Virus record (IMG/VR): IMGVR_UViG_3300025322_000030 | Span: 1-50,363 of that record | Direction: 5' to 3' (one strand) | Length of the DNA: 50,363 nt | Source: a virus | Part shown: positions 809-50,363 of the stretch, one piece after another | Layout: every line of letters begins with the position of its first letter | Position numbering within the stretch: position 1 is the first letter of the stretch | Notes under the pieces: generated by a model | Told to the model about the DNA's origin: nothing | Databases searched by the model: none | What the model saw: only the letters and a program-made list of their open reading frames with translations | Translations under genes and position numbers: made by a program

Positions 809-811
809 GAC

Positions 812-19946: not shown

Positions 19947-21898
19947 TACTCAGCTCCAACTGGTACAATGTTGCCAGCCTCAGCCTGACGTAGAGCAGTT
20001 TCATCAGGCACAACTTGTCCCTCAATTCTACCAACATCCCTCCTAAAATCCTCAACATTCTTCGCACCAAGTTGCTGTGCTATGTACATAAAGATACGAG
20101 TTATATCAAATTGACTTACAAGTTCTGGGGTCGTACCTATGACCTTAAATAGATCAATCCATGCCTGAGAGAAGTTGCCTCCAGGTATGGAACCGTCCCT
20201 TACGATTAAATCGTAGTTAACCGTTAAGTCAAATGGAGTCACCTTGATACTAGATTTTTGGCCAAGTGTCTTTCTCAGCTGCTCAGCGTAACGTCCGACT
20301 ATTCGAACATAGGTCTCATTACTCATATATTGCTGAGTATGGATAGCAAACATGGTGCCTATGTCCTGCATAAACTGCATACCGATTATCATCGCTATAC
20401 GCTGAAGTCTGGATATTGCGCTACCACGAGTGCCTTGGAATTCACTACTTGTTAGACGCTCAGGACCAGTCATACGAAGTGCGCCTTGCATAGACTGATC
20501 TGCACCACTTATTCTGTCCATCCACTGAGTTATGTATGCACTGTCTGCGATATTGAGACGAGTAATGTCCTGGACAACGAGCTGCTGTACAACTTTATCA
20601 ACTCCACGGCCCCAGGCCGGACGGCGTAGACGGATGAGCTTTCCAGGCTTAGGATCTTTAAGGTCCTCAATATTGACAAGAAACGGATCAACAACCAGCA
20701 TATCATTGATAGCCTTACGCACATTAGCAACGTGCGAGTTGAAGAGGAAATCAAGAGTATGTTGTAGTCCATAAAGAATCTCCATTCGACCTATTGGGGT
20801 AATTGAGTAGCCATCGAATTCAGGTGAAGCTAAAGCTACTGGGAACATTCCATGGCTGTGATCAGCTCTTTCACATGCTATAACCACATCATCAGATGCT
20901 AGTTCTAAGTACCACTTCTCAGGATATTCACCTCCAGGTAGCTCCCATTCCTTTGGTATGAGTTTAACATACATCCTTATGCGGTCAATAGGATTTGTGG
21001 TGTTAGTCATTGATCTGTGTAGATCTGTAGACCCACCATGCCTGGTTAGTCTGTCACTCTGATCAAGTGCCAGTGTAGAGCGCTTGTCACCCTTTTTCCT
21101 AAGGTACCTAACATTAAATAGTCCTGAACCTGGCTGAGTTTCCTCATCAAGTAGATTCATGTAGTTACCACGATCTATCCAGCCAACAAATTCAGCTTTC
21201 TGAATCTCACTGCTAGAAACAGATGGATCTGGCAGCCACATATAAGGATCTATGTTGCTTAAGTCGTTTCCTTCAAATAACACAGAAGGAATAGACTGGA
21301 TGTTCCTCTCAGTTTGTACTCCTAACTCTGATACAGTTTCTGTCTCTGATCTAACAAATTTCTTCCCATGTATCTGTCTCCAGCCAGGAACTGCTGCACC
21401 GAAGCCGTAGCATAGTGAGTCACGGAGAACCGTGTGAACGTTTAGAGGGACCTTACTCTTTATGCAATGAAGTCTGATGACTAACTCCATTAACATAGCA
21501 CCTACAGTGTCGCTGTCTTCCACACCTTCATACTGGAACATAGGGTCTTGGAAGAATGCTAGAGTTAGATATGTTAGTAATGCTTCCAGCATTGAATATG
21601 AGTATGGAAATACTATTGACACAGGCTTATTTGGGTCTTTCTTCTTTATCTTATCTTCGATTTCCTTGAGTGGGATGTAGGTGGTTAGAGTTCTATCAAT
21701 TTCCCTCCAATGGCCGTAACGCTTAGATATTTCGTGCCTGGCTTCAGTAGCACGCTGCCATATTCTATCACGAAGTTTATTGTGAAGCTTACTTCCTGGC
21801 TTTAGATCTAAGCCGTAAGGATATTCGTAGTTGTAAGTCTCCCTACTGTAAATATCAGATTTCCAAGAAGATGGTTCGCCTCTAACTATATATGGCAT
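19946..21898 (-). CDS. Portal protein
   Basis: A 650-aa protein of podovirus portal type. The N-terminus has a helical region with ISKRYGHWREIDRT; the centre has DSLCYGFGAAVPGW and DPYMWLPDPS; the C-terminal third includes QMDRISG-like and GTRGSAISRLQRIAM segments typical of the portal stem and crown. It forms the DNA entry ring and meets the terminase during packaging. The ATG has no ribosome site and follows a 23-bp dyad by 6 nt. Confidence 0.8.
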   Translation of the reverse strand: MPYIVRGEPSSWKSDIYSRETYNYEYPYGLDLKPGSKLHNKLRDRIWQRATEARHEISKRYGHWREIDRTLTTYIPLKEIEDKIKKKDPNKPVSIVFPYSYSMLEALLTYLTLAFFQDPMFQYEGVEDSDTVGAMLMELVIRLHCIKSKVPLNVHTVLRDSLCYGFGAAVPGWRQIHGKKFVRSETETVSELGVQTERNIQSIPSVLFEGNDLSNIDPYMWLPDPSVSSSEIQKAEFVGWIDRGNYMNLLDEETQPGSGLFNVRYLRKKGDKRSTLALDQSDRLTRHGGSTDLHRSMTNTTNPIDRIRMYVKLIPKEWELPGGEYPEKWYLELASDDVVIACERADHSHGMFPVALASPEFDGYSITPIGRMEILYGLQHTLDFLFNSHVANVRKAINDMLVVDPFLVNIEDLKDPKPGKLIRLRRPAWGRGVDKVVQQLVVQDITRLNIADSAYITQWMDRISGADQSMQGALRMTGPERLTSSEFQGTRGSAISRLQRIAMIIGMQFMQDIGTMFAIHTQQYMSNETYVRIVGRYAEQLRKTLGQKSSIKVTPFDLTVNYDLIVRDGSIPGGNFSQAWIDLFKVIGTTPELVSQFDITRIFMYIAQQLGAKNVEDFRRDVGRIEGQVVPDETALRQAEAGNIVPVGAE

Positions 21899-21927: not shown

Positions 21928-22269
21928 TCACCATGGCTCAGTTGTTGGACCAGGAGTTGTTGGAGGAGTGCTAGTTTCAGGTAATGGTTCGTAGACGTTG
22001 ATGTCAGCCCAGAGGCCGTGTAGTTCTACATCAGTATCCTCAACATGAGCTTGGACAACCCAAAGTCCTGGCATGTTTAAATCAGTTACAAGCAAATCAT
22101 AGATCATACGAGTTGAGTCTGCAGGATCTATAGATGCAGTCCAGTAACCAGTTGTTCTGTTAGGACGCTTGAACTTTATTATGAGAGTAGCATACACACT
22201 CAAATCAATTCCAGTGTTTACAACTAATCTCGGAGTATCACCTACAAAGGTTTTATCTGCAGAGGCCAA
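21928..22269 (-). CDS. Small beta-sandwich-like protein with PTT tail
   Basis: About 113 aa. The pattern (VGDTPRLVVNTGIDLS, LIIKFKRPN, MPGLWVVQAHVED) resembles the small immunoglobulin-like or BppU-type domains of phage baseplates and fibres. The C-terminus is a Thr/Pro tail (TPPTTPGPTTEP) related to the repeats of the neighbouring gene, whose end it overlaps. The TTG at 22269 is chosen because AGGAG lies 7 nt upstream. Confidence 0.5.
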   Translation of the reverse strand: MASADKTFVGDTPRLVVNTGIDLSVYATLIIKFKRPNRTTGYWTASIDPADSTRMIYDLLVTDLNMPGLWVVQAHVEDTDVELHGLWADINVYEPLPETSTPPTTPGPTTEPW

Positions 22270-24265
22270 GGTCAATCTCCTTTGTTATAGGTGAGAAAAG
22301 TAATAGTTCGATAGGTATAGCTGAGATCAATTCAAGTTCACATATCTCAAGTGGAGGAGCAGTTGTTGGACCTGAAGTTGTAGGCAATAAGGTAGTTGGG
22401 GGTAGAGTAGTCGGAACAGGTGTTGTAGGAGCTGGCGTAGTCAGTGGAAGCGTAGTTGGTGATGGAGTAGTAGGTATAACAGTAGTTGGTGGAAGTGTCG
22501 TTGGAGGAAGAGTAGTGGGAGCTGGAGTCGTTGGTGCTAAAGTTGTAGGAGGAAGGGTAGTTGGAGGAGCCGTAGTCACACAACCATACAAGCCCTGACG
22601 AACTCTATCTATTTCATTTTCAGTTAGAACCTTATCAAATATTAAGACTTCATCAATCTCACCATCCCAGAAGAATACAGGATTGGTATTAGAGTGAATA
22701 CATGCTATCAGAAATGGAGCAGCAGTTAACGCTATGTTATTTACAGTGGTTCCACTATTCTCCTGTGCTGTTTCAGTTATGTCATCCCAAATCTTTGCAT
22801 ACCATGCCTTTGTAGCATCATCGTAAGAGAATGCAAGGTGGTACCATCTATCCAAGACAGGAGTGAATGTAAATAGGACTATCGTCTCCCAACTACCACC
22901 GCCGCTATAACCATGAACATAGGCAAGCCTAACAACTCCACCTACATTCTGCCATAATAGTCCCCAAGATACAGTCCCGTTACCTGCGTCAGCTTTACAA
23001 ATTAAATATCTGTTTTCTCCTACAGATAAGTTAGATTCACTTCTGAAAGCCATTAAGACAGTGTGGATCTTATTAGTTGTGCCAGACTTAAACGGGAAAT
23101 TACTTGACAGACCAACATTGTTCCTGCGATAGTGCTGAGATGAACCAAGTTCAAAATCAGCTGCGCAAGCACCTTCCCAAAAATCAGTTGTGTTTTCGGT
23201 AGGTGGACTAGCCGATGCAGTTAGATCATTAGCATCCTTTGAGTCTACAGTTAAAGCTCCACTTTCGAATCTATACAGTGCTACAGCGTTAGGATCGTCT
23301 GATACGTCGTTGTAGCATGGAGGTTCAGTAGTTGGACCAACCGTAGTGGGAGGTAGAGTAGTCGGTGCCAACGTAGTCGGAGGTAAGGTAGTCGGTGCAG
23401 ATGTTGTAGGAGCTAATGTGGTCGGAGCAAGAGTCGTAGGAGCCGGCGTTGTGGGAGCTAGCGTAGTAGGTGGCAATGTAGTCGGAGCTGGAGTAGTTGG
23501 AGCTAAGGTGGTAGGAGCAGGAGTAGTAGGAGCTAAAGTTGTTGGTGCAAGAGTTGTTGGTGGTAGCGTAGTTGGAGCTAACGTTGTGGGAGGTAAAGTA
23601 GTTGGTGGTAAAGTTGTCGGAGGCAGCGTAGTAGGCGGTGCGACAAATGCCTTGTATGAAGCAACTGCCATCGTCCACTCATCGTCCGCTCCAGCCCAAC
23701 TCATAGTCTGTGGTTGGGCAGTAGTTTGGATGATGTAGCTCGCACCAGCAACACGAACACCTAGATCATGGTCATGGATCAAAGTCTGAGCAGGCGTTAA
23801 AAGATCATTTGCCTCGCTCATCTGAACAGAATTGACTAGCTCTCCATCTTCTGTAGGAGTTACAGCAAGACTCGGATCAGTAGAACCAGTACCTCCATTA
23901 GTCTGATCTGCTCCAGGAGTTTGATTAGCACCATCGTACCAGGAAGCAAAGATGGATACTGCAGATGTGCCATTTAGGCTGTTGAATGTAATAGATAATT
24001 GATTAGATCCGTTAGGTGGATTCTTTAAGCTTAGCTTTGCTACTGTGTGGAATGGAGCTGCAGCAGTCCTGTTCTGCTGCTTATCTATTGTCATCGCCTG
24101 ACCACCATAAGTGGCAGATGAGACAGTAAATGAAGCGTTAGCTGTTTCCGCAACATCTACCAACAGCAGACCATTGGTTCTAGTGCCAATGTCAAAGGTA
24201 AATGTACGAGGATTGACATCCCCAGTGTTGTTCTGCTCAGCTTTTCCAACAAAGGTAATAGGCAT
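22253..24265 (-). CDS. Virion surface protein with two APTT-repeat tracts and a LamG-like domain
   Basis: A 670-aa protein. Residues 1-205 form a beta domain. Residues 210-320 are about 20 tandem PTTLP/PTTLA pentapeptides. Residues 320-560 look like a laminin-G/concanavalin-type lectin domain (YRFESGALTVDSKDANDL; RWYHLAFSYDDATKAW; FWDGEIDEVLIFDKVLTENEI). A second repeat tract follows, then a hydrophobic C-terminal segment. The Thr/Pro tracts are mucin-like and could be glycosylated. A role as host-binding or decoration fibre is inferred. Confidence 0.65.
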   Translation of the reverse strand: MPITFVGKAEQNNTGDVNPRTFTFDIGTRTNGLLLVDVAETANASFTVSSATYGGQAMTIDKQQNRTAAAPFHTVAKLSLKNPPNGSNQLSITFNSLNGTSAVSIFASWYDGANQTPGADQTNGGTGSTDPSLAVTPTEDGELVNSVQMSEANDLLTPAQTLIHDHDLGVRVAGASYIIQTTAQPQTMSWAGADDEWTMAVASYKAFVAPPTTLPPTTLPPTTLPPTTLAPTTLPPTTLAPTTLAPTTPAPTTLAPTTPAPTTLPPTTLAPTTPAPTTLAPTTLAPTTSAPTTLPPTTLAPTTLPPTTVGPTTEPPCYNDVSDDPNAVALYRFESGALTVDSKDANDLTASASPPTENTTDFWEGACAADFELGSSQHYRRNNVGLSSNFPFKSGTTNKIHTVLMAFRSESNLSVGENRYLICKADAGNGTVSWGLLWQNVGGVVRLAYVHGYSGGGSWETIVLFTFTPVLDRWYHLAFSYDDATKAWYAKIWDDITETAQENSGTTVNNIALTAAPFLIACIHSNTNPVFFWDGEIDEVLIFDKVLTENEIDRVRQGLYGCVTTAPPTTLPPTTLAPTTPAPTTLPPTTLPPTTVIPTTPSPTTLPLTTPAPTTPVPTTLPPTTLLPTTSGPTTAPPLEICELELISAIPIELLLFSPITKEIDLGLCR
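22355..22575 (-). repeat. Second 15-bp coding repeat tract
   Basis: Tandem 15-bp units encoding xPTTx pentapeptides, less regular than the first tract. They link the LamG-like domain to the C-terminal segment. Confidence 0.8.
23330..23640 (-). repeat. First 15-bp coding repeat tract
   Basis: About 20 tandem 15-bp units encoding PTTLP and PTTLA variants. Codon third positions vary between units, so the peptide is conserved more than the DNA, which argues for selection on the protein. Confidence 0.85.
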
Positions 24266-25845: not shown

Positions 25846-26123
25846 TTCTTGCCTCCACGCTGATCTTTGTTTATTATCAAGTTTAACTGTTGAACAGTTG
25901 CTGCTAAGCTTATTGATGCACTAGTCAAACTTTCTTGATTACTTATAAGTCTCTCAATGACTTTCTCATGTTGCTTCTGGCCAACTTCTAACGTAGTTAT
26001 TCTACTCTCATTAGAAAGTATAAAACCAATTGCAGCACCGACAATAGGAAGTACAACAACCCAAAGTTTGTTGACTTGTATATATCCACTCCTAACACTG
26101 TCCTCAACTTTTACTCCCATCAT
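25842..26123 (-). CDS. Small single-span membrane protein with coiled coil
   Basis: About 93 aa. One transmembrane segment (LWVVVLPIVGAAIGFIL) is followed by a long helical, Gln/Ser-rich segment that probably forms a coiled coil in the periplasm. A holin-like or lysis-accessory role is possible because no other holin is evident, but size and order also fit other small phage membrane proteins. The start at 26123 overlaps the terminase stop and has GGAGG 5 nt upstream. Confidence 0.5.
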   Translation of the reverse strand: MMGVKVEDSVRSGYIQVNKLWVVVLPIVGAAIGFILSNESRITTLEVGQKQHEKVIERLISNQESLTSASISLAATVQQLNLIINKDQRGGKK

Positions 26124-27661
26124 ACGTACCTCCAATCATCAACTGGCTTTTCATAAGTCAGTTCTTTATATTCAGCCTCGATATCTCCTGGATCCTCTTT
26201 CGGTGAGAAGTAACGTTCTCCAAGTTCTAGCATTTCCACGAGATAAGCTAGGCAGTCCATAAGATCCCAGAGAGCTGATCGAGGGAACATGAGAAGTTGT
26301 TGTTCAAGCTTCTTTATTGTGAAGCAAGATGCATTGTGGTAGATGTAGCCGCCACGATAGTATGGAACAAGCTCACGTATACGAAGCTCCTTCTTCATCC
26401 CACCACGAGCTTTGAGCCAAATAAGTTCGAAAAATGTACCTCGGCGAAACATCTCATTTTTGATAGGCTGTTTGATAAACTCATTGAGTGAAGTTTCTTC
26501 AATTCCAAGTACCTTTGCACCCAGCCTTTGGCCCATGCCGAACATAGCGTCGTAGATTTCATCTGGGTACATTTTGTCAGAAATAGCATCTCTGACGTAG
26601 ACCTTGGCACTTGCAAGGTCAATTCCTATACCAATTATAGCAGATTCGGCAGAATGAATCTTGACAGTCTTGGCTGGATCGAGAATTACTACAGTCTCTA
26701 TGTTTTTATCCTGCTGAACCTCGACGTCTAGTAACTTTAGGTCATTTTCTGTTCCAGGACGTTCCGGGGGGAGGTTGTAATACTTAAAATATTGATGTTG
26801 GAAGGTAGAATCTTTGGTAGAGATAGGCAGATTGCGTAATTCTCGGAAGAAAACATCAGTTTGGCCGGCATCTACATGCTGTTGCCACTCTTTTTGTATA
26901 GCTTCGTCAGACATGAAGTGAGGAGCAGTGGATTTGAAGTCGTCATCGCAAGCTTCGAGACGTGCAGATGACCATTCTGGGGAATCTAGTAACTTTTGAA
27001 GTACAGAATCCTCGTGTTTTAAGGTGTCTATGTAGACTATTTTCCAATTTCCTGCTTCTTCACCTATTCTAGGCACAGCTTTCATTACGTCAGCGTAGAG
27101 CCATGAGTACCAGCCCTTGCGAATTTCCTCATTTTCAACCTTTTCAGGGTCCTCAAGATCATCTATGACAATTAGCCCAGGTCGACTATTCTTGAATAAG
27201 ACACCTCGAACCTGCTGGCCAGCCCCCCGAGGCCATACTAAGGTATCATATGCTACCCAAGCTTTCTTGCTAAATACTTCGTCGAACTCAGCACCAGTCA
27301 CATCTCGTTGTTTGAAGTCGCCGAAGAAAGCTCTGATTTCCTTGTTAGTGACCATCTCACGGCGAAGGTTTTCAGTTTGAAGACTGGCCGCATCGTGACT
27401 ATGGTTGATGTAGACTATGAATGGAGTAAGCCTGAACAAAATGTAGCGTGCAATTAGTGCTTCAGCAACAACTGACGTTTTGCCCCAGCCACGAGGAGCA
27501 GCTATTGCAACCTTCTGTGCTGGGCCGTCTATGAGTTCAAATATCTTCCCATGTACATTCTCGGCAAATGGCATGTAGAAGCGCTCAGGGAAGAAAGTCT
27601 TAGCAACCATCCTTGTTGAGATGCCACACCTTACCAGGATTTCAGAAAGTTGATTATCCAA
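26120..27661 (-). CDS. terL: Terminase large subunit
   Basis: A 513-aa packaging motor. Walker A is APRGWGKT (residues 55-62), Walker B is LIVIDDLE (163-170), and the RNase H-like nuclease begins with ILDPAKT (Asp328) followed by GIEE near residue 400. The start is probably the TTG at 27661 with AGAGGT 10 nt upstream; an ATG at 27610 would still keep all motifs. It overlaps the glycosyltransferase gene upstream and the small membrane gene downstream. Confidence 0.92.
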   Translation of the reverse strand: MDNQLSEILVRCGISTRMVAKTFFPERFYMPFAENVHGKIFELIDGPAQKVAIAAPRGWGKTSVVAEALIARYILFRLTPFIVYINHSHDAASLQTENLRREMVTNKEIRAFFGDFKQRDVTGAEFDEVFSKKAWVAYDTLVWPRGAGQQVRGVLFKNSRPGLIVIDDLEDPEKVENEEIRKGWYSWLYADVMKAVPRIGEEAGNWKIVYIDTLKHEDSVLQKLLDSPEWSSARLEACDDDFKSTAPHFMSDEAIQKEWQQHVDAGQTDVFFRELRNLPISTKDSTFQHQYFKYYNLPPERPGTENDLKLLDVEVQQDKNIETVVILDPAKTVKIHSAESAIIGIGIDLASAKVYVRDAISDKMYPDEIYDAMFGMGQRLGAKVLGIEETSLNEFIKQPIKNEMFRRGTFFELIWLKARGGMKKELRIRELVPYYRGGYIYHNASCFTIKKLEQQLLMFPRSALWDLMDCLAYLVEMLELGERYFSPKEDPGDIEAEYKELTYEKPVDDWRYV

Positions 27662-28397
27662 CTTTAGTTCTACCTCTATTGATAAGGTCTACAGCTTCCT
27701 TATTTTTCGATAGGAAGTATTTCATGGCTACTCTAGGCTCTACTTTCCCAGTTCTTCTGTATGAGCTGTGCCAGTTGTGTCCTACGACTAATTTACTACC
27801 TCCCAAGCCATGCATGATAGATACTTTGTTGGTTAGAGCTAACTTCCATCCATGCATTATAGCTCTAACACACATATCTGCATCTTCATATCCGTAGCCA
27901 GAGTAGTTTTCGTCTAGCAATCCTATCTCATCAAGCATTTTTCTTTTAAGATATACGCAGGTAAATGATATTCTATCATTGCTCTTAGCACTGCAGTATC
28001 TTATGCCGGATGGGAACTTGACCCACAAATGCGAATTAGACAGCTTGGCAAACTTATTATTCGTACCTCCATCAACAACTGGAGCTGCTATACCTATTGA
28101 TATGTCACTGTAGGCAGCTTCCCTGAGAGTCTCGAATGTTAGTCTATGAATCAACCTGGTATCGTCATTTAATAGTATTACATCATTAGGAGCTACATGA
28201 TTTATTCCTACGTTTACAGACCTACTGAATATAAACTTATCATAATCAGTCCTCACATAATCATATCCGTAGCCTCTGTCATGACTGTCGGAAATTATTA
28301 GTATGTGAAAACTGCATCCAAACTCCTTTAGTGACTCTAAAAGTGGCTGGATTATATCTTCAAATCTGTTAGGTATGATAATGCTACAGTTGTTCAT
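27654..28397 (-). CDS. GT2-family glycosyltransferase
   Basis: A 247-aa GT-A type glycosyltransferase. It begins SIIIPNRFED, has the metal/sugar motif LLNDDTR (DxD-like), and a downstream GYGYEDADMCVRA segment, all typical of family 2. It would transfer a sugar from a nucleotide donor to an acceptor such as a virion protein or cell-surface glycan. The ATG at 28397 is preferred over a TTG at 28424. It overlaps the methyltransferase and terminase genes. Confidence 0.8.
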   Translation of the reverse strand: MNNCSIIIPNRFEDIIQPLLESLKEFGCSFHILIISDSHDRGYGYDYVRTDYDKFIFSRSVNVGINHVAPNDVILLNDDTRLIHRLTFETLREAAYSDISIGIAAPVVDGGTNNKFAKLSNSHLWVKFPSGIRYCSAKSNDRISFTCVYLKRKMLDEIGLLDENYSGYGYEDADMCVRAIMHGWKLALTNKVSIMHGLGGSKLVVGHNWHSSYRRTGKVEPRVAMKYFLSKNKEAVDLINRGRTKVG

Positions 28398-28920
28398 ACG
28401 GCTCAATGTAAAACAAGTCAGCAACTTGATTGGTTCTCTTAATAGCTTTTACAAAAACACCAGGGCATTGAGGATCACTGTGCAACTTAAGTATTTCCAT
28501 GTCAGAGAGTATGTCAGACATGTTATCTACACTGAATCTCCAGTAATCAGCTGGATGGTCATGTTTCTTGAATCCACGAGATCTGCATGTGAGAAATAAG
28601 GTACCATCCATACGAAGTACGTACTTAATTCCGTATATTGCTGACCTCCAGTTCTTAGCATGTTCTAGCATTTCCGTACATATAATTACATCGAATAGTC
28701 CTGGTGAGTAGTTTGCAGGTAAGTTTTCAGCTTCTATAACTTTGTCAACTCCCTTACCAGGTCTTATGTCTATGCCTACGTATGAGAGTGGCTTGAGTGA
28801 CATTATTATAGTCCTAGGAGATCCATTTACGTCTAGACTACCTACTTCTAGTACAACTTTGTCCTTGATTTCCTCAGGACTTATATTAGACCGCAGAAAG
28901 TCCATTACGCTCTTGTGCAT
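28384..28920 (-). CDS. SAM-dependent methyltransferase, type 11-like
   Basis: About 178 aa. Motif I is VVLEVGSLDVNG, the acidic residue of motif II is in YVGIDI, and FDVIICTEMLEH is the usual motif IV/post region; a HPADYWRFS segment follows, as in phage and cell-envelope methyltransferases found beside glycosyltransferases. The ATG at 28920 starts 2 nt after a 23-bp dyad and lacks a ribosome site; an in-frame TTG at 28980 would add 20 residues. Likely acts on sugars made or moved by its neighbours. Confidence 0.75.
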   Translation of the reverse strand: MHKSVMDFLRSNISPEEIKDKVVLEVGSLDVNGSPRTIIMSLKPLSYVGIDIRPGKGVDKVIEAENLPANYSPGLFDVIICTEMLEHAKNWRSAIYGIKYVLRMDGTLFLTCRSRGFKKHDHPADYWRFSVDNMSDILSDMEILKLHSDPQCPGVFVKAIKRTNQVADLFYIEPYEQL

Positions 28921-29947
28921 AAGTTTGATCAATTTTGGAATGATCTTGATCCCAAGGCTTGGAGGTAAGTAGTTGCTCAAAGCTCATGATCTTACGACTG
29001 TCAAGCCAGTTCTTTTCATTAGTGCCAATTTCAATAGCTTTGGACCACCACTTGTCGATGTTTATGTACTTACCAAAGCGTTCGGTTAGAGCCTTCCTAT
29101 TACGTTGCATCATTGGCTCGCCACCAAGCACGTAGCAACTAACCAGGAACCCAAAAGTGTGGGGGAAGTTGCCACTTGATGTGTAGCGTCTGTACTTCTC
29201 ATGATCGTTTAGGTCTTTGGCTAGGAAGGCCTCATTACTGTTTCCGTTGTTACCTATACGAGGAAATGGACCTATGTGAATGCAAGAGTTGGTAGGAACT
29301 GCCCAGTTTTTGAAGCCGAGGAGCCAAGGCTTAATTCCTATATGCATGTCACCTCCACCCCAGCTGACTCTGTGCTCAGATAGGGCACCGTAGCCGTTTA
29401 GGCCCTTGTCTTTATCTAAGAACCAGCTCCTTCGACAGATCCATGGCATGCCTTTCCAAGTAATCATCCTTTCGTGATCATAAGCAGTGCCCCAAGGACC
29501 TAGTTCATGTCTGGAGATATTTCTATCGTGCCTAGCCCTCGACTCATGCTGATGAGCCCAGGAGATAGGAGCGTGGGCAAAACCTAGAGTTGGGTCGTTA
29601 TATCTACGATCCATGAAACTAACTAAGTCCTTAATGGAGTCCCTACCAACTATCATGTGTGAATCAAGACATATGATGTACTCACCAACAGCCTTCTCAG
29701 CAGCCAACTCACGAGCTGTGAATAGACATGGGAAGTCCTGATAGAACAACTTGAGGGTCCCATCTCTGCAGTAACCAGTTGGAAGAGCACCTCTTAAGTG
29801 GTCCCTAATTTTCTTATCAGAGTTGTCTACGACTATTACTTCACCAGCACCTTTGCCAAGTGGACGTAGCTCTTCTATACATGATCTAACCGTTACAGCT
29901 AGCATTGCTAAGTCGTTGCGATTAGCTATGATGACAGATACTATCAT
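28886..29947 (-). CDS. GT2-family glycosyltransferase
   Basis: A 353-aa protein beginning SVIIANRNDLAML, with EVIVVDNSD and the DxD-like IICLDSHM motif. A WGGGDMHIGIKPW segment near residue 220 matches the acceptor-side motif of polypeptide or polysaccharide glycosyltransferases. Its ATG overlaps the spanin stop as ATGA. Together with the second GT2 and the methyltransferase it forms a three-gene sugar-modification block inserted between lysis and packaging genes. Confidence 0.8.
   Translation of the reverse strand: MIVSVIIANRNDLAMLAVTVRSCIEELRPLGKGAGEVIVVDNSDKKIRDHLRGALPTGYCRDGTLKLFYQDFPCLFTARELAAEKAVGEYIICLDSHMIVGRDSIKDLVSFMDRRYNDPTLGFAHAPISWAHQHESRARHDRNISRHELGPWGTAYDHERMITWKGMPWICRRSWFLDKDKGLNGYGALSEHRVSWGGGDMHIGIKPWLLGFKNWAVPTNSCIHIGPFPRIGNNGNSNEAFLAKDLNDHEKYRRYTSSGNFPHTFGFLVSCYVLGGEPMMQRNRKALTERFGKYINIDKWWSKAIEIGTNEKNWLDSRKIMSFEQLLTSKPWDQDHSKIDQTYAQERNGLSAV
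28923..28945. promoter_or_regulatory. 23-bp dyad copy 7
   Basis: Arms GTTTGATC and GAATGATC. It lies inside the 3' end of one glycosyltransferase gene and 2 nt before the methyltransferase ATG. Confidence 0.75.
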
Positions 29948-41378: not shown

Positions 41379-42376
41379 CCTTCCCAATTCCTGAGAATCC
41401 AAACTGGTGGATACTCGACTCGTCAAAGCTAGATGATTATCTAGCCTGTCCACGTAAGTTCTTCTTCACTCATATCCTTGGATGGAGGATGGATATTCCT
41501 GCTCATGATCTTTGGTTCGGCTCAGCTTGGCATAAGGCAAGAGAATGGCAGTTGCTTCACGGCTATGAGGATGTGCAAAGTGCTTACTTTGCATTCCTCA
41601 GTGAGTACCGCAAACACTTCGACCAAGAAACAGATTCAATCTATACCCCAAAGGACCCAGCTGGAGTATTAAATGCACTACTAAAGTTCCGGGATGAGAG
41701 ATTCAACGATCTTATTGAGAATAGGGTTGTCGAAATAGACGGAATCAAAATGGTTGAGATCTCTGGGACTGTACCAGTAGATGAGAAAAGAGTCCTTTAT
41801 TACAAGATGGACTCTATAATGGAGAGGATGTCCGACGAGATGATCTTCTCCTGGGACCACAAAAGTACTTCTGGTAGGTATATAAACTCCAGGCAGTGGA
41901 CTGAACAGTTTCATCTAAGTGTTCAGAATGGAACCTATACTCACTGTCTGTTTTGTATGTTTCCAGTTGACAAAGTCCTCGGAGTGGAGTTTTGTGGTAC
42001 AGGTTTTGAGTATCTTCAGCGTGGCTCAGCCAATCGCTCAGCAGGTTATCACGCAACTCTTCAGCGAGTACCTGCATTCAAAACTCCTGACCAGATGAAT
42101 GTCTGGCTTTGGAACGTCCTAGACATAATCAACAACATAGAACGTGACGTTGATAGGTTGTCACACTGCAAGGAGAGTGATCCTGTAATGATGGCCTTTC
42201 AGCAGAATCCTAAGTCATGCACAGACTACAAAGGCTGTCCATTTCATGACTTCTGTTTATCGTGGAGTAATCCGTTACAGCGTTGTTACGAACCTCCTAT
42301 TGGTTTCAGAGTCGAGTTCTGGAATCCTTCAGAGATGGACACAACTGTTAAGAAGAACTTGGAGTGGCCTAAATGA
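41375..42376 (+). CDS. PD-(D/E)XK exonuclease, Cas4/AddB-like with Fe-S site
   Basis: A 333-aa protein. The first Cys of a 4Fe-4S site is Cys25 in YLACPRKF; the other three are Cys282, Cys288 and Cys294 near the C-terminus. His53 (AWHKA), an acidic residue and Asp161-His-Lys163 (DHK) form the nuclease core. It probably resects DNA 5' to 3' for phage recombination, in line with the neighbouring Sak4-like ATPase and SSB. Confidence 0.8.
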   Translation: MTFPIPENPNWWILDSSKLDDYLACPRKFFFTHILGWRMDIPAHDLWFGSAWHKAREWQLLHGYEDVQSAYFAFLSEYRKHFDQETDSIYTPKDPAGVLNALLKFRDERFNDLIENRVVEIDGIKMVEISGTVPVDEKRVLYYKMDSIMERMSDEMIFSWDHKSTSGRYINSRQWTEQFHLSVQNGTYTHCLFCMFPVDKVLGVEFCGTGFEYLQRGSANRSAGYHATLQRVPAFKTPDQMNVWLWNVLDIINNIERDVDRLSHCKESDPVMMAFQQNPKSCTDYKGCPFHDFCLSWSNPLQRCYEPPIGFRVEFWNPSEMDTTVKKNLEWPK

Positions 42377-42609
42377 CGAAATCAATCAAGCAAAAGTGGG
42401 CGCAGGAAAGATGCTTCCTTAACTATGGTTCACTTCTTGGAATTGAAGCAAGATTGAGGCAAATAGCTAAGGCGCGCAGTACTACAAGCAAAGAATCTGT
42501 AATATTAATGCATATAGCAGACAGACTAAATGTTGTTACTCTCATGTGGCTCAGTGAAAGTAGCAAGAAAGCCTCTAAGTCCATATTTACTCTTGAAAGG
42601 ACATGGTGA
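42373..42609 (+). CDS. Small helical protein, unknown
   Basis: A 78-aa helical basic protein between nuclease and ATPase genes, coupled to both. No family recognised; a cofactor of the recombination set is possible. Confidence 0.5.
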   Translation: MTKSIKQKWAQERCFLNYGSLLGIEARLRQIAKARSTTSKESVILMHIADRLNVVTLMWLSESSKKASKSIFTLERTW

Positions 42610-42610
42610 G

Positions 42611-43441
42611 ATGCCCTACGACTTCAAATCAGAGCTAGCTCGAGTCAGGAAGTACTACGAAGGTGATCCACTTCAGAAAAGATTCAGTGCTCTTGTTTGT
42701 GGTGGTATAGGATCAGGTAAGTCATATCTGCTAAGAACGGCTCGCAGACCCGTTCATGTAGACTCATTTGATCCAGGAGGAACAAAATGTAATCTGCCAC
42801 TCATTAAAAGTGGGGATATGGTAGCTGATACCAGATGGGAGACTGAGGATCCTTACTTTCCTGATAAGTTTGCAGCGTGGATGAAAGTTACAAACATAAG
42901 ATTGGAGATGGGATATTTTAATCACTTTGGAACCTATTGCCTAGATAGTGCAACAACTTGGGGAGAGGCAGTGATGAACTATCGCCTGGCTGGTGAAGGC
43001 AGAGCTGGTGAAGCCCCAAAGTGGGCACATGACTATGTGCCACAGAAGACTTACATGGTTAACTACATTAGAAAGCTAATGAGATTACCATGTGACTTCA
43101 TACTGACTGGGCATTTACGTGAGATTGAGGAAATTATCAGCGTAGATACAAAGACTGGAGTAACGAGAAAGAGTATCGAATATAGATTTTATACAGTCGG
43201 TCAAGCTGTCCTGACCATCCCGCTCTTATTCGACGAGATTTATGTACTCCTCGGAAAGGAGGGTAAAGATGGAGTAGAACGTAAAATGCTCATTGATGCA
43301 CAAGGTAAATACATAGCTAGGTCAAGACTTAGGGCTAATGGAAAACTTGATTCAGTAGAAGCACCTAACATCAAAGCCCTACTCAAAAAGATTGGCCTGT
43401 CGTGGGAAGATAAACCTAAACTTGAAATGGAGGTGAAATGA
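42611..43441 (+). CDS. Sak4-like RecA-fold ATPase
   Basis: A 276-aa P-loop ATPase with Walker A GGIGSGKS (31-38) and a Walker B-like FILTGH segment. Size, HVDSFDPGG motif and position match the phage Sak4/AAA_24 recombinases, which promote single-strand annealing together with an SSB. The SSB gene lies 0.3 kb downstream. The ATG at 42611 follows the upstream stop by 1 nt and has AAAGGA about 9 nt before it. Confidence 0.75.
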   Translation: MPYDFKSELARVRKYYEGDPLQKRFSALVCGGIGSGKSYLLRTARRPVHVDSFDPGGTKCNLPLIKSGDMVADTRWETEDPYFPDKFAAWMKVTNIRLEMGYFNHFGTYCLDSATTWGEAVMNYRLAGEGRAGEAPKWAHDYVPQKTYMVNYIRKLMRLPCDFILTGHLREIEEIISVDTKTGVTRKSIEYRFYTVGQAVLTIPLLFDEIYVLLGKEGKDGVERKMLIDAQGKYIARSRLRANGKLDSVEAPNIKALLKKIGLSWEDKPKLEMEVK

Positions 43442-43731
43442 ATAAAGAAGAAGTAAAAGAGTTGATATCAACAAAGGATATACTACAAGCTACCTCAGAA
43501 GAGTTGAAAGAGATACATATGAGGTTGGCTAAGTTGGAGAGTAAACTAAACAGATACGACAGAATATTCGAGTCAGCTTTTAGAGAAGAGGCAGAATCCA
43601 GGTTGCATCTTGGATCACTGCATGGACATGAACAAGCAGATAAAGCATACAGAGCTAGTAGTCTAGAGATGTTAAGAATGAAATTAGAAAGGAAGGTGAT
43701 GCCTGGAACACTAATACCTGTTGACAAATAG
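43438..43731 (+). CDS. Coiled-coil protein, unknown
   Basis: A 97-aa protein of mostly charged coiled coil (SEELKEIHMRLAKLESKLNRYD). GGAGG lies 5 nt before the ATG, which overlaps the ATPase stop. Perhaps a partner of the recombination genes. Confidence 0.5.
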   Translation: MNKEEVKELISTKDILQATSEELKEIHMRLAKLESKLNRYDRIFESAFREEAESRLHLGSLHGHEQADKAYRASSLEMLRMKLERKVMPGTLIPVDK

Positions 43732-43773: not shown

Positions 43774-44247
43774 ATGTCTCTAACTGATTACAGTGATCTT
43801 GAAAAAGAAATAGCAAGTGCGCCAGAGCCAAAGGTTCTCCCTCGAGGAGCTGAGGTTAAGGCAAGGATCATCAATGTCAGAGATGGCATTAGTGATAAGA
43901 ACGATGCTCAGTGGTATCAGCCAGTATTTGATGTACCTGCTGATCCACTTGTAGTGGAGTTCAATGACTTCTTCTGGGACCTGGCAGATCGTGACAAGCT
44001 AGATCCTAAGCAAGCAGCAAGGGCAATGACGAAGTTTAAGAACTTCGCTGCAGCCTTTGGACTTGACTACTCAAAACCATTCGACTGGACCCAGGACCTA
44101 CTTGGACTGCAGGGCTGGGTCATTCTCGGTGTTCGTAAGAGTGACGAGTATGGAGACCAGAACACAGTCTCCAAATACGTAGCAGGTCACGGCAGACCTA
44201 ATGTGGCCAGAAAGGAGGATATAGAAGAAGACGACATCCCGTTCTAA
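43774..44247 (+). CDS. Single-stranded DNA-binding protein
   Basis: A 157-aa protein with an OB-fold-like pattern (VLPRGAEVKARIINVRDG) and an acidic C-terminus ending EEDDIPF, the typical SSB tip that recruits partners. AAGGAG lies upstream. It would protect ssDNA and work with the Sak4-like ATPase. Confidence 0.8.
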   Translation: MSLTDYSDLEKEIASAPEPKVLPRGAEVKARIINVRDGISDKNDAQWYQPVFDVPADPLVVEFNDFFWDLADRDKLDPKQAARAMTKFKNFAAAFGLDYSKPFDWTQDLLGLQGWVILGVRKSDEYGDQNTVSKYVAGHGRPNVARKEDIEEDDIPF

Positions 44248-44537: not shown

Positions 44538-44754
44538 AAGAACTTATCCAAAGCAACTTGGAAGTACTGATGAGTGGGATTACTCACCTCCAACAATTGT
44601 AACTGTGTTAGTCCTTGGTAACGTAGGTGACTACGCAGCATACATAGGTATAGGATCTCCAGAATGGATTGCGAGGTTTGGAGCTAAACTCATGTTTGAA
44701 GAAGCTAAAATTCACTTTCCAACTATAGAAAGAGAAAAGTACAGAGGTTACTGA
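44509..44754 (+). CDS. Small alpha/beta protein, unknown
   Basis: An 81-aa protein with strands around TIVTVLVLGNVGDYAAYIG. The ATG at 44509 has AAAGGA about 7 nt upstream; one at 44491 would add 6 residues. Its last base is shared with the next start. Confidence 0.5.
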   Translation: MDYKIISVNRRTYPKQLGSTDEWDYSPPTIVTVLVLGNVGDYAAYIGIGSPEWIARFGAKLMFEEAKIHFPTIEREKYRGY

Positions 44755-45887
44755 TGAACATTCTAGTTCTAGGCTACGACGGTTACATAGGCTGGCCACT
44801 TACACTTGAGCTACTCAAAGATGGACACATTGTTAGTGGAATAGATAATGGATCTAGAAGGTTTAGAGTAACTGAGTGTGGAAGTCAGTCACTGACACCT
44901 ATACTTACAAGAGCTAGCAGATGGACCTACCTGAGAGATAATTTCGATAAGGTTCATCTTCTGATAGATAACAACATCTCACACATGAGTGAGCAGTTAA
45001 AATATATCTTTGAAAACTATAGCATAGACGTTATATTCCATCTAGCCGAGCAGCCATCTGCACCCTGGTCAATGGCTAATTTCCATCGGGCCAATAAGAC
45101 CCAGATAGAGAACGTATCCGGTACACTTGCTCTACTTTGGGCCATGAAAGAAGCATGTCCAAAAGCTCACCTAATCAAAATAGGTACAATGGGCGAGTAT
45201 GGTACACCTAATTGTGACATCCCTGAAGGTAGAATAGAAGAAGGTCCAATGGCTGGACTTCTATTTCCTCGTACTGCAGGCTCGTTCTACCACCTCTCCA
45301 AGGTCCACGATACTCACAACATTGAGTTTGCTTGTCGTAACTGGGGACTTCGTTCGACTGACATAATGCAAGGAGTTGTATTTGGATTGAATGAAACTGA
45401 CAATGATGCAGAGTTGACCAGGTTTGATTATGATGAGTACTTTGGAACTGTCATAAACAGATTCTGTGTCCAGGCTATCATAGGCCATCCACTCACAGTA
45501 TATGGCTATGGAGGCCAAACAAGAGGGTTCATACCACTGAGAGACTCAATCAAGTGTCTGAAAATAGCGATGGATAATCCTCCTGTGAAGGGTGAGTATA
45601 GAACATTTAATCAGTTCGAGAGTATTCATACTATTAACGAGCTAGCTTATATGGTTAGGGATGCACTTCACACTCTCAACATGCCATACAGGATAGATCA
45701 CATACCTAATCCACGTAAGGAATCAGAAGATCATTACTATAATCCAAGGCATTTGGGTCTGGCTAAGTTTGGCTACAGCCCATCTATATCCATACACAGG
45801 GATATATACGAACTAATCAAAAAAATTCTACCATACAAGGACAGAGTAATCAAAGAAGTAATCATGCCAAAGACTACATGGAAATAG
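44754..45887 (+). CDS. UDP-sulfoquinovose synthase homologue (SQD1/SqdB-like)
   Basis: A 377-aa short-chain dehydrogenase-type sugar enzyme. NAD site GYDGYIG is at 7-13. The match to SQD1 is extensive: SLTPI, EQPSAPWSM, GTMGEYGTP (Thr145), SFYHLSKVHDTHN (Tyr179, Lys183), NRFCVQ with GHPLTVYG, GGQTRGF, and HYYNPRH. The catalytic Thr, Tyr and Lys are all present. SQD1 makes UDP-sulfoquinovose from UDP-glucose and sulfite, the precursor of sulfolipids and of some glycans. It is embedded in the early region. Whether this copy is used for virion or host-surface sugars is inference. Confidence 0.85.
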   Translation: MNILVLGYDGYIGWPLTLELLKDGHIVSGIDNGSRRFRVTECGSQSLTPILTRASRWTYLRDNFDKVHLLIDNNISHMSEQLKYIFENYSIDVIFHLAEQPSAPWSMANFHRANKTQIENVSGTLALLWAMKEACPKAHLIKIGTMGEYGTPNCDIPEGRIEEGPMAGLLFPRTAGSFYHLSKVHDTHNIEFACRNWGLRSTDIMQGVVFGLNETDNDAELTRFDYDEYFGTVINRFCVQAIIGHPLTVYGYGGQTRGFIPLRDSIKCLKIAMDNPPVKGEYRTFNQFESIHTINELAYMVRDALHTLNMPYRIDHIPNPRKESEDHYYNPRHLGLAKFGYSPSISIHRDIYELIKKILPYKDRVIKEVIMPKTTWK

Positions 45888-46528: not shown

Positions 46529-46758
46529 CTACATTTAGTATACACTTGAACGAGAGAGAATTAGTAAGCTTGATAAAGTTCTTGATGTGTCTATCTGATG
46601 AAACAGTAGGCACATTTACATACTTCACTAAAGGAAAGGCACTCAGGGTTCACTTCAGAGGAGACAATAAAAAGGTGCAAAAGCAGATATGTGAATGGCT
46701 AAGTATTCCTGAGAGAAAACAGAACTTTATGGGAGCTAAGGATGATAAAAGTCGGTGA
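46525..46758 (+). CDS. Small protein, unknown
   Basis: A 77-aa alpha/beta protein (TTFSIHLNERELVSLIKFL). The start overlaps the previous stop as ATGA, and its end overlaps the ParB-methyltransferase gene. Confidence 0.5.
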   Translation: MTTFSIHLNERELVSLIKFLMCLSDETVGTFTYFTKGKALRVHFRGDNKKVQKQICEWLSIPERKQNFMGAKDDKSR

Positions 46759-48061
46759 AGTGGCTATGATCCCAACGTCGTCAATAGTTGTTGATGATGA
46801 CAGAGCTAGAAAGATAATGGGAGACCTGGATGGGCTAGAAACTAACATGAAAGAATCAGGACTAATCTCTCCATTAGCTGTAAAATATAACAGTGATGGG
46901 AGTTACAAACTCCTGGCTGGCGAACGTAGATATATTGTACTCAAGCGTAATAATGTAGAAAGCATACCAGTTAGAATATATACTGAGGATCTAACTGATC
47001 TCGAGATGAAGATTATAGAGAAGTCTGAAAACTTCTTTCGCAAGGACATGGAATACTGGGAGTTTGACAAGCTAACTCTCGAGATCCATCAAATGCAGCA
47101 GGAGCTGCATGGAGCTAAGACTCCAGGACCTACAAGCGTAGGTTGGGGGACTAGAGATACTGCAGAGATGTTATCCAGTAGTCAGCCCGCTGTAGTTGAA
47201 TCTGTGAAACGAGCTCAGGCTAGAGAAGCATTCCCAGATCTGTTTGACAATTGTAAGACTGCAAGTGATGCCAGTAAGATACTGAAGAAGATAGATGAAG
47301 CTGCTGTTAGGCAGGTTATAGCACAAAGGCTGGAAGCTCAGTCATCTGAAGGCACCATCCATGACTTAGCTAAGAGATTTATAGTGAAAGACTTCTTCAA
47401 AGGTATTAGGGAAGTCCCTGATGGAATAATTCACTTAGTGGAAATAGATCCACCATATGCTATAAACTTGGCTCATCAAAGAAAGAAGGACGGTGAGTCA
47501 CAGTATCAGCTAGAAGACTACAATGATATAGATCAAGACTCATATCCATCATTTTTGGATCGAACTTTGAAGGAATGTTATAGGGTGATGACTGAGCACT
47601 CATGGCTAATTATCTGGTTCGCGCCAGAACCCTGGTTCGATGAAGTATATAAGGCACTAAACAGCGCAGGATTTAGCACGACTAGAATGGTAGGCGTATG
47701 GACGAAAGGTGTGCCTGGGCAGAGTATGAATCCCTCAATCAGACTAGCCAACAGCTACGAAATGTTCTTCTACGCATGGAAAGGTCAGCCTGCACTAAAC
47801 AAAGCTGGCAGAAGCAACGAGTTTCATTTCTCACCAGTTCCATCTAATCAAAAGACCCATCCAACAGAGAGACCAATAGAGCTAATGAAGGAGGTATATG
47901 ATACTTTTGCGTTCCAAGGATCTCGAGTGCTAATTCCTTTTCTTGGATCTGGAAATGGAATACTCGCATCCCAGCAGCTTGGAATGTCAGCTTTTGGATT
48001 TGAGCTTAGTAAGTCGTATAAGGATTCATTCTTAGTCAAAGTACACTTAATGAGAGGATAA
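46742..48061 (+). CDS. ParB-like / DNA methyltransferase fusion
   Basis: A 439-aa protein. Residues 1-110 are a ParB/Srx-like domain (GLISPLAVKY, AGERRY at 59-64, then a KSENFFRKD segment). A helix-turn-helix-like part follows near 135-155 (TAEMLSSSQPAVVESV). Residues 200-439 are an N4/N6 methyltransferase of beta order: catalytic DPPY at 236-239 precedes the SAM motif FLGSGNG at 400-406. It would methylate an adenine or cytosine in a sequence chosen in part by the ParB/HTH region. No restriction enzyme partner was seen, so it is an orphan, perhaps protective or regulatory. Near its middle lies a weak dyad half-site (47543). Confidence 0.8.
   Translation: MIKVGEVAMIPTSSIVVDDDRARKIMGDLDGLETNMKESGLISPLAVKYNSDGSYKLLAGERRYIVLKRNNVESIPVRIYTEDLTDLEMKIIEKSENFFRKDMEYWEFDKLTLEIHQMQQELHGAKTPGPTSVGWGTRDTAEMLSSSQPAVVESVKRAQAREAFPDLFDNCKTASDASKILKKIDEAAVRQVIAQRLEAQSSEGTIHDLAKRFIVKDFFKGIREVPDGIIHLVEIDPPYAINLAHQRKKDGESQYQLEDYNDIDQDSYPSFLDRTLKECYRVMTEHSWLIIWFAPEPWFDEVYKALNSAGFSTTRMVGVWTKGVPGQSMNPSIRLANSYEMFFYAWKGQPALNKAGRSNEFHFSPVPSNQKTHPTERPIELMKEVYDTFAFQGSRVLIPFLGSGNGILASQQLGMSAFGFELSKSYKDSFLVKVHLMRG
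47543..47565. promoter_or_regulatory. Half-site resembling the 23-bp dyad
   Basis: Only the right arm GATCGAAC is intact. It may be coincidence. Confidence 0.25.
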
Positions 48062-48204: not shown

Positions 48205-50363
48205 ATGAAACGCACCTTCGTTCCACCATCAGGCAACAAATCTGCAAAGCTAGCTTTGTGTGGCGAGCAGCCTGGCAAAGATGAGATCATGGCTCGTCCA
48301 CCTCAGCCTTTTGTCGGACCTGCAGGTAAGGGCCTGAATGAGTGTCTGGCTGTAACCAAGACACTTCGTAGAGATTTATATCTAACAAATGTAATAAAGG
48401 ACTTGGATCACCCACTTTCATATTACATAGATATAAATCAACGAGGTAGGCATACGATTAGTCAGGAGGGCTATCAGTACATCCAGGAGTTAGCTGAAGA
48501 ACTCAAACAGATCAGGCCTAATTGTGTGGTAGCTCTTGGCAACGTAGCGCTGTTGGCACTGACAAATCGAATAGGAATTACCAAGTGGAGAGGATCAGTT
48601 CTTGAATCAACTGTTGTACCAGGACTTAAGGTTGTTCCTACATTTCATCCAGCTACATTCATACCACCGAAGTTTAACTTTCTCAATAAACCACTGATAT
48701 GTGAGGATTTAGAAAGGGCCAAACATGAAAGTGAGTTTCCTGAAATCAGACGTTTAGCTAGAAACATAATAGTTCGACCCAATTTTGATCAGACTGTTGA
48801 TATACTAAACTATTGCTATGAAGTTGGATTAAGGGGTCAAACTATTGGATTTGACTTAGAGCTTATAGGCGGAGAAGTAGACTGCTTCTCTGTTGGGTGG
48901 TCATCTATAGATTCGATAAGTGTTCCATTAAGAGGACCTCAAGGAGATTACTTTAACCCAGAGGAAGAGTTAGAGATAATGCTACTGTTGGCTAAGATAG
49001 TCCAGGAGCCAAGAATATCCAAAGCTGGAGCCAATGTAATCTTTGATACACAAGTGCTATTTCACAAGTACGGTATCCGACCAAGAGGTAAGATTCACTG
49101 CACACAAATAGCCCAGAAAATATCCTATCCAGATTTCTCAGTCGGACTAGACTTTGTTACTGCAATGTACACAGACATTCCATACTACAAACAAGATGGT
49201 AAGCAGTGGATGAAAATGCAAGCTGGTACCTGGGAGCAGTGGTGGAACTACAATGGAATGGACTCTATAGTACCAGCCGATGTAATTCCAGAGCAGCTCC
49301 AGGCACTTGCTAAACAGCAGAATGAGGAAACCTATGAGAGAAAACTAAGGCTCATGGAACCTCTCATTTATATGTCTGAGAGAGGAATTAGAGTTGATGT
49401 TCAAGGAATGATGGAATATAGGGAGAAACAGCAAACTGAACTTGATAGACTCTCTGAGGAACTAAACAGAGAAGTTGGATATGAAATTAATTTCAACTCA
49501 CCAAAGCAGTTAATGAATTACTTTTATAATGAAACAGGGATTAAGCCATACAAGAAGAGGAATACCAAGAATGAATATGTAGACACAACAGACGTGGACG
49601 CGCTTAAGCGTATCTCAAGAAGAGGTGGACCTGGAAGTCAGGCAGCCAAGCTACTGCTTGATATAAGGTCACTCAGTAAACGAATATCAACTTACTTAAA
49701 CATAGGAAAGGTGGATATAGATGGACGATACAAAAGTTCATACAAGCCGGTCGGAGCTGATACTGGACGACTCTCATCTGGAGAAACTATCTTCGGTACT
49801 GGAGGAAATCAGCAAAATTGGCCTCATGACCTACTCAGATTCTTTCTCTTTGACGAGGGATATATCGGATACTCGCTTGACCTTAGCCAAATCGAAAACA
49901 GAATTGTTGCCCACGTCGGAGGAGTAATAACGCAGATAGAGGCATTCGAGCAAGGTATAGATCTACATAAACTGACTGCTGGTGTGATACTTGATAAGTC
50001 GTATGATCAAATATCTGATGAGGATAGTTCCTCAGACATAGGCGACGGTAGACATAGTGAACGCTTCTGGGGAAAGAAAGGTAATCATGCTATAAACTAC
50101 GATGTTCAATACAAGACATTTGCACTGAAGAATGAACTTCAAGAAGGCGAGGCTAAGTATATACTTGAGAAGATTCACAGGGGATATCCGCAAATTAGGG
50201 ATGGCTACCACGTAACTATTCAGAATATGCTGAAGAAGAATAGAACTATTACAAACCTGTTTGGCCGTAGCAGATTATTCCTCGGTCCTATATTCCAATC
50301 CTATCCAAATGTGCCTAAGAGTGCATGTGAAGCTACATATAGAGAAGCTTATGCTCAGTTAGC
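48205..50363 (+). CDS. Uracil-DNA glycosylase-like / DNA polymerase I fusion (N-terminal part, split by the window edge)
   Basis: Replicative family A DNA polymerase; with the piece at 16-528 it totals 848 aa. Residues 1-180 look like a family 4/5 uracil-DNA glycosylase: GEQPG at 20-24, PFVGPAG at 35-41, then TNV and an HPATF motif. A 3'-5' exonuclease region follows with a DLE motif (GFDLE). The polymerase domain has motif A (DLSQIE, Asp559) and motif B ending in INY. By alignment Tyr632 takes the place of E. coli Phe762, a substitution reported to be common in virulent phages. It follows a small membrane protein gene and overlaps the MazG-like gene downstream. One 23-bp dyad lies inside the gene at 48772. 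The ATG at 48205 is the first start after the upstream stop; no strong ribosome site is visible. Confidence 0.93.
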   Translation, partial: MKRTFVPPSGNKSAKLALCGEQPGKDEIMARPPQPFVGPAGKGLNECLAVTKTLRRDLYLTNVIKDLDHPLSYYIDINQRGRHTISQEGYQYIQELAEELKQIRPNCVVALGNVALLALTNRIGITKWRGSVLESTVVPGLKVVPTFHPATFIPPKFNFLNKPLICEDLERAKHESEFPEIRRLARNIIVRPNFDQTVDILNYCYEVGLRGQTIGFDLELIGGEVDCFSVGWSSIDSISVPLRGPQGDYFNPEEELEIMLLLAKIVQEPRISKAGANVIFDTQVLFHKYGIRPRGKIHCTQIAQKISYPDFSVGLDFVTAMYTDIPYYKQDGKQWMKMQAGTWEQWWNYNGMDSIVPADVIPEQLQALAKQQNEETYERKLRLMEPLIYMSERGIRVDVQGMMEYREKQQTELDRLSEELNREVGYEINFNSPKQLMNYFYNETGIKPYKKRNTKNEYVDTTDVDALKRISRRGGPGSQAAKLLLDIRSLSKRISTYLNIGKVDIDGRYKSSYKPVGADTGRLSSGETIFGTGGNQQNWPHDLLRFFLFDEGYIGYSLDLSQIENRIVAHVGGVITQIEAFEQGIDLHKLTAGVILDKSYDQISDEDSSSDIGDGRHSERFWGKKGNHAINYDVQYKTFALKNELQEGEAKYILEKIHRGYPQIRDGYHVTIQNMLKKNRTITNLFGRSRLFLGPIFQSYPNVPKSACEATYREAYAQL
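48772..48794. promoter_or_regulatory. 23-bp dyad copy 17 (inside polymerase gene)
   Basis: Arms GTTCGACC and GATCAGAC. It lies within the coding region between the glycosylase-like and exonuclease domains. Confidence 0.6.
50238..50363 (+). repeat. Terminal overlap, right copy
   Basis: Exact copy of 15-140. It joins the two halves of the DNA polymerase gene in frame: codon 679 begins at 50239, which corresponds to 16. Confidence 0.9.

Follow-up and report, generated by a model that had tools for sequence, protein, structure and literature searches.

Sulfoquinovose occurs in photosynthetic membranes and in the N-glycans of archaea. The window (the whole stretch of 50,363 nucleotides of viral DNA analysed here) contains a gene of the SQD1/SqdB/Agl3 family, called sqd below, and the question is what a phage would do with such an enzyme. 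Our results suggest that phages of the sqd clade coat their particles with a sugar of their own making, which may be sulfonated.

Table 1. Features of the window that are discussed in the text
Feature	Position	Strand	Remarks
670-aa protein, two long Thr/Pro (APTT/PPTT) mucin-like arrays flanking a LamG-like domain	22253..24265	-	Candidate glycan acceptor
Terminase large subunit	26120..27661	-	Phage lineage marker
Second glycosyltransferase-like ORF	27654..28424	-	Glyco_tranf_2_3 / Glyco_transf_7C, weak; terminase interval
SAM-dependent methyltransferase ORF	28384..28980	-	Terminase interval
GT2 glycosyltransferase, DSH (DxH) motif, predicted GalNAc-transferase-like fold	28886..29947	-	Between terminase genes; co-occurs with sqd
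Sak4-like ATPase	42530..43441	+	Upstream edge of conserved replication block around sqd
Conserved gene, labelled SSB, without family match	43774..44247	+	Upstream of sqd insertion site
sqd gene, SQD1/SqdB/Agl3 family	44754..45887	+	377 aa; Agl3-type branch, virus-only clade
ParB-N / DNA methylase fusion	46742..48061	+	Downstream edge of replication block

Family and fold of the sqd protein

The first-pass annotation had called an SQD1 homologue at exactly 44754-45887 on the plus strand, and the search results agree. The open reading frame runs from ATG to stop, encoding 377 aa without an internal stop. It overlaps both neighbouring ORFs: the start codon shares the TGATG with the stop of the ORF before it, and the 3' end runs into the next ORF. 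A ribosome-binding-like stretch, AGAGG, is found upstream of the start. In terms of sequence, the top PDB match of residues 3-377, by phmmer, is SQD1 (1QRR/1I24) with an E-value of 1e-101, with the next family at 7e-12. For the AlphaFold2 model (mean pLDDT 77.9), too, the top entries are those of SQD1 (E 8.6e-39 to 7e-38), followed by UDP-glucose 4-epimerase (1.2e-19), SQD1 being the best fold by 19 orders of magnitude in E-value. In both sequence and fold, sqd is closer to SQD1 than to other nucleotide-sugar SDRs. The active-site fingerprint of SQD1 and Agl3, [ST]MG...Yx3K (PMC8987622), is present as GTMGEYG and YHLSK.

General profile collections are less specific. Pfam assigns only the broad Epimerase and GDP_Man_Dehyd families, and PHROGs only “nucleotide-sugar epimerase”. 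The best model is NF041015, the NCBIfam equivalog for UDP-sulfoquinovose synthase, with 454.7 bits, which misses the cut-off of 575. The full-length Chloroflexota-phylum SqdB-type proteins that we found miss it as well (460-505 bits). Since its score is below the equivalog cut-off (455 vs 575), the product of sqd is unproven. Nevertheless, by sequence, fold and tree the ORF belongs to the UDP-sulfoquinovose synthase family, which bears out the earlier assignment to SQD1/SqdB/Agl3.

Phylogeny and selection

Cellular relatives were taken from GTDB genomes, viral ones from IMG/VR (the best 80 of 117 relatives) and SqdB anchors from plasmids. The main tree has 103 rows with NS-SDR outgroups, whose branches are long, making the root less sure than the clades. 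Within it, an Agl3-type group of 80 rows (SH-aLRT 99) unites a virus-only clade with Agl3 of the Sulfolobales and further proteins from archaea and bacteria; the SqdB/SQD1 proteins fall outside. Known UDP-sulfoquinovose synthases thus bracket the viral clade, SQD1 from outside the 80-row group and Agl3 from inside. For the best 80 of 117 viral relatives, the virus-only clade comprises 36 rows (SH-aLRT 84), within which 34 rows (94) and then a core of 29 rows (99) are nested, the window gene belonging to the core. In an earlier tree of 62 rows, the viral clade had a support of 100 and its stem measured 0.58 changes per site. Phylogeny had been named as the check on the family assignment, with UDP-sugar epimerases as the competing position; sqd was found inside the SQD1/SqdB/Agl3 tree and not among these epimerases. 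A placement with epimerases or dehydratases is ruled out by the tree together with the fold search. As for selection, close viral sqd pairs with dS of at least 0.25 have omega values of 0.06-0.19, which indicates purifying selection.

Some relatives deserve a separate description. One very divergent viral SQD relative (37%), L022 (IMGVR_UViG_3300033145_002956), groups with a haloarchaeal plasmid protein, L181. The Syntrophaceae UBA6112 sequence L024 carries an SqdB-type and an Agl3-type gene about 5 kb apart (544-7182), with genes between them named by eye as cytidylyltransferase-, NeuB- and NeuC-like.

Active site and position 101

An intact active site had been proposed on the basis of Thr145, Tyr179 and Lys183. 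These three are present, together with Met146, Glu148 and Tyr149, but “intact” is too strong, as the Arg101 of SQD1 is Pro in the window. In SQD1 numbering, the retained residues are His96, Thr145, Met146, Gly147, Glu148, Tyr149, Tyr182 and Lys186, and also Asn241, Arg242, Thr254, Tyr256, Arg327 and Glu329. The window protein was aligned by computation onto positions 101, 145, 182, 239-242, 254-256 and 327-329, which we take to be the substrate contacts of SQD1. In Agl3, replacement of His95, Arg101, Met145, Tyr182 or Lys186 by Ala abolishes activity and that of Glu147 or Tyr148 strongly impairs it, with T144A still active (PMC4388408). Of the residues essential or important in that scan, the window has His95, Met145, Glu147, Tyr148, Tyr182 and Lys186. 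As read from the alignment, the predicted active site is complete save for one residue, Pro101.

The motif around this position is HLAEQPSAPWSM in the window, with Pro at the place of Arg101. In L127 it is HFAEQRSAPYSM, where the single Arg nearby is Arg100 in its own count and Arg101 in the SQD1 count. L127 is likely the S. acidocaldarius Agl3 orthologue, judging from its His95, Thr144 and YHWTK, which match the numbering of PMC4388408.

All 29 core viral rows share Pro101, which is also found in many Chloroflexota, Nitrososphaeria and Desulfobacterota-type relatives, and overall in 79 of 97 family rows of the alignment, so that Arg101 probably does not define the family. Only two changes on the tree are needed to explain the Arg and Pro states, with Agl3 (Arg) nested within the Pro group. 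Pro-type orthologues from Nitrososphaeria (603-613 bits) and one from Bathyarchaeota (591.5) pass the NF041015 cut-off. We know of no Pro-type family member that has been assayed, and because of Pro101 sqd cannot be called a proven UDP-sulfoquinovose synthase. As loss of this Arg appears to inactivate Agl3, Pro101 speaks against the function proposed below.

Our reading of the chemistry is that the sqd protein would be an NAD-dependent, UDP-glucose-modifying enzyme of the Agl3-type branch. UDP-glucose would be oxidised at C4, water removed across C5-C6 and sulfite added, most likely giving UDP-sulfoquinovose. We consider this step, taken alone, reasonably probable. An enzyme of the same family could also serve the same GT2 with another UDP-sugar, for example UDP-glucose-5,6-ene or one with a differently substituted C6, if Pro101 reflects altered chemistry. 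The invariance of Pro101 in the viral core, its frequency in cellular relatives and the missed equivalog cut-off fit such a change, and Agl3 without sulfite does yield UDP-glucose-5,6-ene (PMC4388408). We judge it unlikely, as the Nitrososphaeria Pro-type proteins exceed the cut-off, the Arg and Pro states call for only two changes on the tree with a proven Arg synthase inside the Pro group, and the remaining mutated Agl3 residues that were checked are all kept.

A second substitution, Met205 for Asn208 of SQD1 (TDLNQG to TDIMQG), was rejected as a sign of lost function because Sulfolobales Agl3 sequences carry the same Met.

The catalytic loop of another viral SQD homologue, L021:3403-5598 (IMGVR_UViG_3300033148_001011), is split precisely at the junction of TMGEYG and TPN by an intein-like insert carrying a LAGLIDADG domain. 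The SQD gene of G437 itself (L177/L178; Anaerolineae MAG phylum) has an insert related to it (37% over 364 aa).

Phage lineage and genomic site

Most sqd-positive contigs of 45-51 kb share the terminase large subunit of the window, mostly at 64-83% identity; IMG/VR contains more than 230 terminase relatives. Among named phages, the closest by terminase is Desulfofustis phage LS06-2018-MD01 (OP947158), with 47% identity in this protein and the same gene order, without sqd. Its host was assigned by CRISPR spacers as Desulfofustis sp. PB-SRB1 (PMC10370329), and on this ground a Desulfobacterota host is our guess for the window phage. A host search by terminase, run without a positive control, gave no match in 395 Syntrophaceae-MAG-phylum and 400 Anaerolineae-MAG-phylum genomes and shows nothing. 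A search of 50,697 INPHARED phage records gave no match to the sqd protein or to the GT2. Positions 48205-50363 and 13-528 of the window are parts of one DNA polymerase gene, a single gene in relatives. Since both ends share it, the contig probably represents an almost complete genome that is circularly permuted and was opened within this gene.

The comparison covered 23 genomes with a length of 42 kb or more, 15 with sqd and 8 without. The site is the same in nearly all sqd-positive genomes: Sak4, a small conserved gene, fam42, a dCMP-deaminase-like gene, sqd, fam40 and the ParB/methylase gene. The dCMP-deaminase-like gene is missing from some genomes, including the window, and in G490 sqd is at another site. 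Genomes lacking sqd have the replication block without it, and on the terminase tree sqd was gained or lost about 7 times. The ParB-N and N4/N6 DNA methylase fusion (46742-48061) is conserved across the lineage and in phage MD01. The position of sqd in the replication block, next to a dCMP-deaminase-like gene in relatives, had raised the idea of a role in DNA hypermodification. It was rejected, as a ThyX-like gene shows no link with sqd (1/15 sqd-positive vs 2/8 sqd-negative genomes).

These data also bear on the origin of the gene. Further viral contigs were placed at several other positions of the tree, and as supported branches force at least four label changes, viruses captured the gene more than once. 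Such distant IMG/VR hits do resemble separate host acquisitions, which would suit a recent capture from a host without a selected role, or a mis-binned host fragment. The window gene belongs instead to a long-stem virus-only clade, has phage replication genes on both sides, and its relatives occupy the same site in many genomes under purifying selection. Clade, synteny and selection together rule out recent capture or contamination, to which we leave next to no probability.

A glycosyltransferase that follows sqd

The first-pass annotation had linked sqd to the glycosyltransferases encoded at 27.6-29.9 kb. Of the 55 variable families, it is indeed the GT2 at 28886-29947 that follows sqd across related genomes, being present in 15/15 sqd-positive vs 2/8 sqd-negative genomes (p 2.8e-4). 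The next-best family has a p of 0.07, and an equally good best association arose in 1 of 500 label shuffles. A location between the two terminase genes is even more discriminating (15/15 vs 1/8, p 3.3e-5). As genomes were selected via terminase, sqd or GT2 hits, the association may be inflated; the two selected via GT2 are divided, G502 being in favour of it and G501 opposed. A tree-aware test gave three independent pairs on supported branches, GT2 following sqd in about two and opposing it in none, which is short of significance because there are only three pairs.

The DSH motif is invariant in 32 sequences of this GT2 family. Pfam assigns the window protein to Glycos_transf_2, and the family profile has weak matches to chondroitin synthase and polypeptide GalNAc-transferases. 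The top 50 PDB matches of its AlphaFold2 model (pLDDT 87.5) are all polypeptide GalNAc-transferases (best E 5.5e-13). The model thus predicts a polypeptide GalNAc-transferase-like (GT27) fold of the GT-A type with a DxH metal motif. Polypeptide GalNAc-transferases are UDP-sugar- and Mn-dependent and glycosylate Ser/Thr. The fold of such an enzyme does not by itself dictate donor or acceptor.

The terminase interval of relatives holds variable glycosyltransferase, SDR, methyltransferase and radical-SAM genes. In one of these intervals, L278:4046-6061 and its family 86 relatives fuse a B12-binding radical-SAM domain to a GT2 domain; family 86 genes occur in sqd-positive and sqd-negative genomes alike.

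Candidate acceptors

Given the resemblance of the GT2 to polypeptide GalNAc-transferases, we looked for acceptor proteins. Mucin-like Thr/Pro repeats of the APTT or STEAP/TDAP types were identified by eye in head- or tail-region proteins of 13/15 sqd-positive genomes. Poly-Thr tracts occur in both genomes that have the GT2 without sqd. The head-region homologue in G474, which lacks sqd, has a PVEPIEP repeat almost without Thr. A repeat score differs between genomes with and without the GT2 (p 0.02, post hoc; exceptions G490, G502 and G499). Grouping by sqd gives no significant difference in the score (p 0.44), owing to the two poly-Thr genomes, and results from fragmentary contigs are mixed. 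In phage proteins of GT2-positive, sqd-negative genomes, the tracts are nearly pure poly-Thr/Ser (G498 41234-43717, G501 20607-21356).

Proposed function

We propose that the sqd product, most likely UDP-sulfoquinovose, is the donor for the co-inherited GT2, which would O-glycosylate Thr/Ser-rich virion repeats such as those of the protein at 22253-24265. The whole chain, from UDP-sulfoquinovose through the GT2 to an O-link on virion repeats, is tentative, and we rate it as possible, slightly on the doubtful side. The data establish family membership, the virus-only clade, purifying selection, the fixed syntenic site and the co-occurrence with the GT2; product, GT2 donor and acceptor are inferred. 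The sulfite could come from host respiration, if the host is a sulfate reducer like that of the nearest named relative. A fuller version, in which mucin-type O-glycosylation puts phage-made sulfoquinovose on virion Thr/Pro repeats and creates a strongly acidic sulfonated coat, is clearly more doubtful.

The same sugar, or a relative of it, might modify a host surface glycan instead, changing the receptor or excluding other phages. Accessory genes that come and go, as sqd does, and the variable gene content of the terminase interval would suit this. Against it, the GT2 linked to sqd has the modelled fold of a protein O-glycosyltransferase, and the scan of window genes turned up neither an O-antigen flippase or polymerase nor a lipid-carrier glycosyltransferase among those it covered. 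We regard it as quite improbable.

Remodelling of host sulfolipids under phosphate stress had been the alternative of the first-pass annotation, and it fares worse still. In Loktanella and Sinorhizobium, SqdB lies beside a glycosyltransferase gene, like in the known sulfolipid operon. The viral clade is outside the SqdB branch, the co-inherited transferase is of the protein type by predicted fold, and the glycosyltransferases found in the window are GT2-type, the main one modelling as GalNAc-transferase-like. Of the sulfolipid operon partners, SqdD was used as query and had no match in the window. Altogether, a lipid role appears very improbable.

If our preferred reading is true, in which UDP-sulfoquinovose feeds the GT2, a virus-only branch of the synthase family that is under selection and passed on with one protein-type glycosyltransferase would mean that phages build sulfonated coats. 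The sqd and GT2 genes form a defined two-gene system open to assay. The analysis also exposes a Pro101 subfamily that is common in archaea and bacteria.

Comparison with known systems

SQD1 of Arabidopsis thaliana (1QRR, 1I24) resembles the sqd protein along the full alignment and in fold, GxxGxxG, TMGEYG, YxxxK and the UDP-glucose site residues 241-242, 254-256 and 327-329. It differs at positions 101 and 208, shares about 44% identity and lies on a separate branch, and as judged with SqdD queries the window gene has no sulfolipid context. Agl3 of Sulfolobus acidocaldarius is in the same half of the tree, with the MQG motif and a role in a glycoconjugate and not a lipid. In contrast to the window, it has Arg in EQRSAP and serves an archaeal N-glycan pathway; identity is about 45%.

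Among viruses, a putative UDP-sulfoquinovose synthase of the same annotated family was reported in a Cariaco Basin Mu-like virus, a single case by homology (PMC7785012). The main text of that paper proposes a role in N-glycosylation and pressure, without a partner transferase or virion model. Our literature search on viral UDP-sulfoquinovose synthases found no further paper. Desulfofustis phage LS06-2018-MD01 shares gene order and replication block, and differs in lacking sqd, the GT2 and the Thr/Pro repeats.

Glycosylation of mycobacteriophage virions by phage glycosyltransferases is established, as reported in PMC12363180. In Che8, Corndog and Myrna such enzymes modify capsid and tail tube proteins (Freeman 2023, cited in PMC12363180). 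This source describes neither a phage-made sulfonated sugar donor nor an SQD1-type enzyme for these phages. Virion glycosylation by phage enzymes is already known; new here are a clade found only in viruses, the caveat on Pro101, the constant site of the gene and a partner transferase with candidate mucin-like acceptors.
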